Source: Nitrospirae bacterium JdFR-86 | Lineage (GTDB): Bacteria; Nitrospirota; Thermodesulfovibrionia; Thermodesulfovibrionales; JdFR-86 | Reading direction: 5' to 3' | Length of the DNA stretch: 43,926 nucleotides | Assembly: GCA_002011815.1 (NCBI GenBank) | Contig: MTOV01000005.1 | Span: 1-43,926, forward strand | In this document: positions 1 through 23,284 of the stretch, in pieces | How the letters are laid out: each line of letters begins with the position of its first letter | Position numbering within the stretch: the first letter of the stretch is position 1 | The notes under the pieces: model-generated | Told to the model about the DNA's origin: nothing | Databases searched by the model: none | The model's input: only the letters and a program-made list of their open reading frames with translations | Made by a program: the position numbers and the translations under genes

Positions 1-155
1 AAAATTTTTTGTGTCTGAAACCCGAAGGGTTGAGTTTAAAAAATTTTACCGGAGGCAGACCGAGTAAGCCGCCCGGAAATTTTCACAGGGCGCCCTTTTT
101 GCGCTACTTTTTGGGCGAGCAAAAAGTAGCAGAGGTTTGAGGCGGAGCCCCATAA
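1..155 (+). repeat. Structured dispersed repeat, copy 1 (5' end cut by window)
   Basis: This gene-free stretch upstream of argG is a second copy of the sequence at about 22911-23066. It folds into nested hairpins. The outer stem is 1-10 with 38-47 (10 bp, perfect), the inner stem is 19-23 with 27-31 around a GAA loop, and a third stem pairs 103-113 with 120-130 around the loop GGCGAG. The linker at about 46-97 is nearly identical in both copies, whereas the stems differ in sequence but stay paired. It has no credible coding frame. The family is not one I can name. It resembles short intergenic repeats in which only secondary structure is kept. The 5' boundary is unknown because the window starts inside or at its edge. 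Confidence 0.75.
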
Positions 156-22784: not shown

Positions 22785-22870
22785 AGGTTCACACCCGTGT
22801 TGTTAAAACACGGCATATGGTATAGGTTTGCTCTTTAACAATAGCGGTTGCAACCCTTGCTTTTAATCCC

Positions 22871-23070
22871 ATCTGAAAATTTCAGGCTTGGGAGGTCTGC
22901 CGGAGGGTTAAAAATTTCAGCGTGTTTGAGGCACGAAGTGCCGAGTTTGCTGAAATTTACCGGAGGCAGACCGAGAGAGCCGCCCGGAAATTTTCACAGG
23001 GCGCCCTTCTTTGGTTACTTTCTTGGGCGAGCAAGAAAGTAACAGGTGTCTGGGGCAGAGCCCCATACAA
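22871..23070 (+). repeat. Structured dispersed repeat, copy 2 (fuller copy)
   Basis: Matches the element at 1-155. Hairpins: 22912-22921 with 22949-22958 (10 bp), inner 22930-22934 with 22938-22942 around GAA, and 23014-23025 with 23032-23043 (12 bp) around GGCGAG, then GGGGC/GCCCC at about 23052-23064. An extra upstream part (22871-22911) includes GGTCTGCC (22894-22901), able to pair with GGCAGACC (22965-22972). Short overlapping frames here follow from the repeat and are not genes. Function unknown. Confidence 0.75.
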
Positions 23071-23151
23071 CAGGACGCGAACAGGGTCAATTGACCCTAA
23101 CTATTTGAAATCAAAGGCAAAAACAGTGATTGACCCCTCAGGACGCGAACA
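23071..23151 (+). repeat. 13-base direct repeats bracketing a palindrome
   Basis: CAGGACGCGAACA occurs at 23071-23083 and 23139-23151. Between them is the perfect 16-base palindrome AGGGTCAATTGACCCT (23083-23098) and, near the right end, GATTGACCCC, a part copy of its right arm. The arrangement resembles a small repeat-derived insertion or the remains of a REP-like unit. It sits immediately after the structured repeat and before the aminotransferase gene. Confidence 0.55.
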
Positions 23152-23284
23152 TAAAAAACCGGTCTCATCCCCCCGCTGGTTTAAGCCCCCTGCAGGTTGC
23201 GGACTTGAACAAACATGCCTTGCTATGCTAACTTTAAAGGTTGTGATTTTTTAAATTTTCCACTCTGGATTTTGGAGGATTTTA

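Follow-up and report, generated by a model that had tools for sequence, protein, structure and literature searches.

A dispersed bacterial repeat with covarying helices and a predicted triple-helix pseudoknot at its 3′ end

What is the repeat that occurs twice in this stretch of the Nitrospirae bacterium JdFR-86 genome, and what keeps its loops constant while its stems differ from copy to copy? Contig C9, one of the 25 contigs of a 2.1 Mb genome, opens with the window, by which we mean the whole 43,926-nucleotide stretch analysed. A first-pass annotation had described two copies with a common linker, common loops and differing stems, and direct reading of the sequence confirmed both. A linker stretch of 29 bases is identical at 69-97 and 22980-23008 (0 expected from shuffles), and no shuffled sequence is as stable as the fold of 22871-23070, for which z = -5.8 as RNA and -7.0 as DNA. 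Copy 1 lacks its 5′ part, including helices P1 and P2, because the contig begins inside it. Many further contigs of this genome end within copies, as expected for repeats of this kind, which break short-read assembly.

The element is about 175-200 nt long and is dispersed through the source genome in about 45-57 copies: BLAST finds 52 places, and the covariance model of genomic copies that the first-pass annotation had proposed, once built, finds 57 matches, some of which are pieces at contig ends. In an alignment of 22 copies the order is P1 (TGAAAATTTC/GAAATTTTCA), P2 with a tandem GA/GA, a short GG/CC, P3, the loop GTGTTTGA/GAGTTT and P4; 3′ of P4 come GGGYGYCC, a T/C linker, a hairpin with the loop GGGCRAGC and, in part of the copies, a GGGGC-AGA-GCCCC tail (Table 1). 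No protein is encoded in the element. Across this alignment 93.6% of cells are paired, and both partners vary at 36 of the 57 pairs, a result that none of 500 shuffles reaches; cells with both-side changes number 166, against 52 in the shuffled alignments, and pairing falls to about 50% when the partner is shifted by one base. The compensated stem changes first noticed between two copies therefore extend to the wider set, and one-arm changes, which would have spoken against them, are not the pattern: both arms change. The stem differences are subfamily differences that reach beyond these two copies, subfamilies having their loops in common and nearly all of their stems different. As for the architecture first described, all three hairpins stand, but the outer helices P1 and P2 had been overlooked. 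Similarly, the near-identical "linker" is shared but contains the 3′ arms of P1 and P2 plus a pseudoknot strand, and the third stem, read at first as a plain hairpin, is a stem whose loop is in fact paired and whose preceding bases match the third strand of a triplex.

Table 1. Positions of the element's parts in the window
Feature	Position	Strand	Evidence or remark
Copy 2 of the element	22868..23066	+	covariance-model match 22868-23043 (191 bits, E 1.6e-44, own genome) plus tail hairpin
P1 5′ arm TGAAAATTTC	22874..22883, partner 22987-22996	+	both-side changes in 5/10 pairs; 98.6% of cells paired
P2 5′ arm, conserved GA facing GA (read from the alignment)	22885..22901, partner 22965-22981	+	both-side changes in 12/15 pairs; 82% of cells paired
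P3 5′ arm AAATTTCAGC	22912..22921, partner 22949-22958	+	both-side changes in 7/10 pairs; 98.6% paired
Conserved internal loop GTGTTTGA / GAGTTT, around P4	22922-22929 / 22943-22948	+	columns near invariant
P4, GGCAC-GAA-GTGCC	22930-22942 (arms 22930-22934/22938-22942)	+	both-side changes in 5/5 pairs
3′ arms of P3, P2, P1	22949-22958, 22965-22981, 22987-22996 (span 22949..22996)	+	fold and covariation
Pseudoknot 5′ strand CGCCC	23002..23006, partner loop 23025-23029 GGGCG	+	100% paired in 22 copies; both-side changes; cross-phylum covariation
Linker TTCTTT, putative parallel third strand on AAGAAA 23033-23038	23007..23012	+	three-strand covariation, 105 modules
Hairpin: stem GTTACTTTCTT 23014-23024, loop GGGCGAGC 23025-23032, AAGAAAGTAAC 23033-23043	23014..23043	+	
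Tail hairpin GGGGC-AGA-GCCCC	23052..23064	+	in some copies only
Copy 1, 5′-truncated by contig start	1..155	+	
Copy 1 helices	P3 1-10/38-47; P4 19-23/27-31; third stem 103-112/121-130	+	
Copy 1 pseudoknot and putative third strand	91-95 with 113-117; 96-100 on 121-125	+	

Several observations concern the surroundings of the copies. A separate short repeat, CAGGACGCGAACATAAAA or similar, lies 3′ of several of them (window 23068-23095; L002, L003, L007, L010), so that the intergenic regions resemble repeat mosaics. Neighbouring same-strand copies (L004/L013 on contig C10, L017 on C2) are joined by a common spacer of about 50 bp, TATCAATTTTTC(C/T)GATAAAGATA, and the true unit may therefore exceed 200 bp. 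The repeats are open in some reading frames and give rise to spurious ORFs (window 22922-23254, + strand; ORFs in L077, L091 and L192), with peptides such as LLFGYFLLGKQEKVTRP. An intrinsic terminator was considered for the third hairpin and rejected on sequence, the stem being A/T-rich with no T-run behind it.

What does the loop of the third hairpin pair with? RNAalifold joins it to an upstream CGCCC (CGCCC:GGGCG), and this pairing is present in 22 of 22 copies, with C-G to T-A changes. The third hairpin and the upstream strand thus form an H-type pseudoknot in which loop and partner covary. In 132 elements, drawn from many genomes, the key pair, between the base 5′ of GCC and the loop base after GGGC, is T-A in 85 and C-G in 21, with C.A in 4, G.A in 16, A.G in 1 and T.G in 0. 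The covarying loop/partner sets include GGGCA/TGCCC, GGGCG/CGCCC, GGCGA/TCGCC, GGCCAC/GTGGCC, GCGGC/GCCGC and GCAGC/GCTGC. For example, in Pasteurella (L213) loop and partner are both replaced and remain complementary (TCGCC/GGCGA); likewise, the pseudoknot strands are GTGGCC/GGCCAC in Aeromonas (L212), GCCGC/GCGGC in Paraburkholderia (L211) and GCTGC/GCAGC in Caballeronia (L209). Against our preferred explanation, the outer pseudoknot pair is lost in 14 modules, where GGCC faces GGGCA.

The linker of an H-type pseudoknot follows the deep groove of stem 2 and has the same direction as the 3′ strand of that stem. The T/C-rich linker of the element matches the purine strand of the stem base for base in just this parallel sense (T.A-T, C.G-C, G.T-A), and the three strands change together: 105 modules give 688 of 735 possible matches, against a mean of 531 and a maximum of 565 in 2000 permutations. 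Stems of the class AAAGAAAA occur with the linker TTTCTTTT in 27 of 32 cases, those of the class AAGAGAAA with TTCTCTTT in 11 of 13 and those of the class AAAAGAAA with TTTTCTTT in all 12; further classes combine AAAAAA with TTTTTT and AAGAAA with TTCTTT. When the purine strand contains T, then the linker contains G (AATAGAAA/TTGTCTTT, AAATAAAA/TTTGTTTT), and the G.T-A triple is known from DNA triplexes. When each stem class is represented by a single example, the observed score is attained by 1 in 200,000 permutations. The mirror relation alone is satisfied by 21 modules, the direct-repeat relation alone by 1. A scan of 1.22 Mb of sequence, a non-random sample, asked for a hairpin of at least 9 bp and a pseudoknot of at least 4 bp, with any loop sequence and no condition on a third strand. 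It returned 131 modules, 97 of which have 6-7 of 7 third-strand matches, whereas shuffled DNA gave 2 modules with scores of 1 and 3; the third strand is therefore no artefact of how modules were selected. The Hoogsteen, pyrimidine and purine segments follow the order of a class IV intrastrand triplex, with matching bases, at the level of sequence, and we infer that the 3′ module can form such a triplex.

How widely is this structure distributed? The covariance model matches 9 of 41 related genomes, the source genome 57 times and the remaining 32 not at all, and it also matches a Latescibacterota MAG (74 bits), Desulfobacterales (62-63), Desulfuromonadales (58), Thioalkalivibrio (48 bits) and an Ilyobacter replicon (40 bits). 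A pattern for the 3′ module finds at least 119 stretches, in Pseudomonadota, Selenomonadales, Bacteroidota, Desulfobacterales/Thermodesulfobacteriota and Latescibacterota, with tens and up to 117 matches per genome elsewhere (overlaps counted) and 0 for the reversed control pattern. The module is present in at least six named phyla, and upstream of it lies a large multi-helix body that each lineage has to itself; the internal-loop motif TGTYTGAG..CGAGTT also recurs in other phyla. Every one of the 52 pairs shows both-side changes in a 28-row cross-phylum alignment that had been fitted to the model; the cells with such changes number 376, against 100 when shuffled. Since the fold is kept in related genomes and other phyla and covaries in the genome's own copies, in other genomes and across phyla, the selection on structure first suggested, at RNA or hairpin-DNA level, is supported. 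The window has 0 Rfam 15 matches at the gathering threshold and chance-level matches only at a permissive one, and the module was not matched in phage and E. coli collections. The literature searched, which covered few subscription journals, held nothing relevant on the module's sequence strings and no description of a triplex-pseudoknot shape for bacterial repeats.

Two features of individual lineages deserve mention. Gammaproteobacterial and Selenomonad bodies (L096, L099, L101, L133, L139, L155) carry A(T)GGA(T/C) hairpin loops closed by C-G, and these GGA hairpins, for example GACATGGATGTC and AAACAGGATGTTT, resemble CsrA/RsmA binding sites. In L084 (Dyella), L164 and L193 the module is interrupted on its 5′ side by an identical sequence, GGCGTTGCACTTGATATTAGAGAC(C/T)GCC, which probably marks the terminus of an insertion sequence with the module hairpin as its target.

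The arrangement of the copies bears on how the element spreads. Inverted pairs, in some genomes only, have their hairpins outermost in Paraburkholderia and Pasteurella, and in Taibaiella (L148) copies are arrayed in tandem about every 195 bp; other copies are single. Two sites are common to Paraburkholderia caribensis and P. largidicola, and P. phymatum is without the element at both orthologous sites, where its flanks are too diverged for the exact element ends to be read, as a test for the terminal inverted repeats and target-site duplication of a MITE would require. No insertion event with a target-site duplication was seen, nor did any enzyme emerge that would mobilise the element; both points count against our preferred explanation. 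The Paraburkholderia elements (L211 22640-23960; L217) lie between REP-like CGCTGGCATCCGCG / CGCGGATGCCAGCG repeats, and P. phymatum retains one pair of these repeats without the element. No protein family is enriched beside the copies, the clusters found being mostly translations of the repeat; likewise, host-like ORFs and no transposase lie between facing copies in Thiomicrospira (L089). A reverse transcriptase as mobiliser, or an RNA borne by a retroelement, was rejected, there being no RVT_1 in the source genome or in G005 and G010, which also bear copies.

We propose, with a probability of roughly 0.55, that the repeat is a non-autonomous dispersed element of mobile type, which folds as a single strand and whose triplex pseudoknot is its recognised end. 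Covarying helices, a pseudoknot, three-strand covariation, dispersal, patchiness across phyla and the lack of an encoded protein are what we observe, and the mobile repeat named in the first-pass annotation fits this dispersed, patchy, high-copy distribution. A lineage-specific multi-helix body, here P1-P4, would be followed by the conserved 3′ module, an H-type pseudoknot whose long A/T-rich stem would take up the linker in its major groove as a third strand, in parallel orientation. The element would fold when single-stranded, at a replication fork or in a transcript; the triplex pseudoknot may then be the end feature recognised by the trans-acting machinery that spreads the element, and copies could subsequently diversify through module exchange. 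The chances are even, in our estimate, that many unnamed lineage-specific repeats of bacteria make up one ancient selfish superfamily, spanning at least seven phyla and defined by a recognised triple-helix pseudoknot that three-strand covariation maintains and that an as yet undescribed mechanism, of mobility or RNA, uses.

Is the working form RNA or DNA? A structured RNA, in which the transcribed + strand forms the triplex pseudoknot, for instance for protection against 3′-exonucleases or for protein binding, and in which dispersal is secondary, is a possible reading that we hold tentatively. Telomerase RNA, SAM-II and preQ1-II contain H-type pseudoknots with U.A-U triples, which makes this a motif of RNA; the conserved internal loops with tandem GA and the CsrA-like hairpins of the gammaproteobacterial bodies point the same way, as does cross-phylum alignment A4, where G.U outnumbers A.C mismatches 49 to 13, favouring + strand RNA in an alignment that was itself fitted with an RNA model. 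Wobble pairs are scarce overall, however, an unfitted count has no excess of G.U over A.C (40 vs 49), and the key pair of the pseudoknot is never T.G and four times C.A. Similarly, the element agrees with co-directional genes 7 to 0 in the source genome, by rough gene calls, which would favour transcription, but element and gene orientations stand at 15 to 14 in other genomes. The comparison of gene orientations proposed at the outset thus yields a bias in the source genome that the wider set does not share, and a fixed-orientation cis-regulatory element, suggested by the former, is not upheld by the latter. The extremely patchy copy number among relatives and the lack of an Rfam family also count against a structured RNA. 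Because the distribution is that of a mobile element and orientation shows no preference, we lean, short of proof, towards folding of single-stranded DNA rather than RNA.

Two further explanations are unlikely, the second slightly more so. For REPs and TIR repeats, which form hairpins and stand in inverted pairs, an association with Y1 transposases is documented (PMC3733652); inverted pairs are common here as well, and in one case about 105 bp separate a copy from a Y1 gene (G037:C71:5260-5896); a REP-like element mobilised in trans by a Y1 tyrosine transposase, of the RAYT or TIR-associated type, would fit these points. Yet no Y1 gene is found in the source genome (57 matches), G005 (19 matches) or G010, nor in 13 of 40 further carrier genomes, one of these with 107 pattern matches, and we reject this enzyme as mobiliser on its absence from the copy-richest relatives and these 13 carriers; unit length and motif are also unlike those of GTAG/CGTC REPs. 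Alternatively, template switching or repair within the palindrome might keep the arms complementary, so that covariation is a mutational by-product with no selection involved. Arm correction is known for quasipalindromes, and the stems contain hardly anything but Watson-Crick pairs and few one-sided changes, but such correction cannot couple a pseudoknot strand to a loop or a linker to a stem in parallel register. The internal loops, moreover, are fixed while the stems vary, and the same architecture is retained across phyla.

Among known systems the nearest kinds are the BoxC/PIT intrastrand triplex repeats and the REP/BIME and TIR repeats, and the element lacks the defining features of both. 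BoxC/PIT elements (TMECO; Holder et al. 2015, PMC4666352), each a G/C-rich purine-motif (class II) triplex of about 36 nt linked to genome instability, are likewise dispersed bacterial repeats, often in inverted pairs, with a capacity for intrastrand triplex formation, which we predict for our element too, and no common flanking genes. In contrast, our element has a T/C pyrimidine motif (class IV order) and a structured body of about 150 nt, its 8-nt loop is held in place by the pseudoknot, and the purine-motif BoxC pattern CCCTCNCCC..GGGNGAGGG..GGGNGAGGG is absent from it. The TMECO search, which makes no mention of pseudoknots, permitted loops of 1-6 nt (PMC4666352), so that a motif with an 8-nt loop falls outside it; some family members may already be listed in the original PIT survey (Hoyne et al. 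2000). REP/BIME repeats (20-40 bp, a GTAG or CGTC tag, RAYT or TIR-associated Y1 transposases; Di Nocera et al. 2013, PMC3733652) are also short, palindromic, intergenic and patchy, occur in many phyla and form inverted pairs. They have no pseudoknot or triplex, however; the unit here is 175-200 nt with a conserved loop and linker instead of an unpaired tag, and the repeat-flanked Y1 gene of REP/RAYT systems is missing from the source genome, as from other copy-rich genomes. The stem-loop sequence families of PMC2267715 are similarly repeated, foldable and intergenic, some perhaps transcribed, but are species-specific, and the parts of that source available to us name neither this motif nor a pseudoknot. 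Finally, telomerase RNA, SAM-II and preQ1-II have the topology of the predicted module, in which loop 1 follows the purine strand of stem 2 in parallel along the deep groove and makes U.A-U triples; these, however, are single-locus RNAs or riboswitches, with no sequence kinship and negative Rfam searches.

Comparative evidence for a triple helix is seldom to be had; three-strand covariation supplies it here, in a bacteria-wide repeat. One testable structure unites repeats of Dyella, Lysobacter, Pseudomonas, Selenomonadales, Bacteroidota, Desulfobacterales, Ilyobacter, Burkholderiales and Pasteurella, and its descriptor (hairpin, pseudoknot, third strand) can be used to find more members and would correct spurious gene calls where ORFs run through the repeat. 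How bacterial palindromic repeats spread, and whether they do so as DNA or as RNA, becomes directly testable with short oligonucleotides, and the triplex-pseudoknot shape could account for the spread or the action of the repeats studied here.
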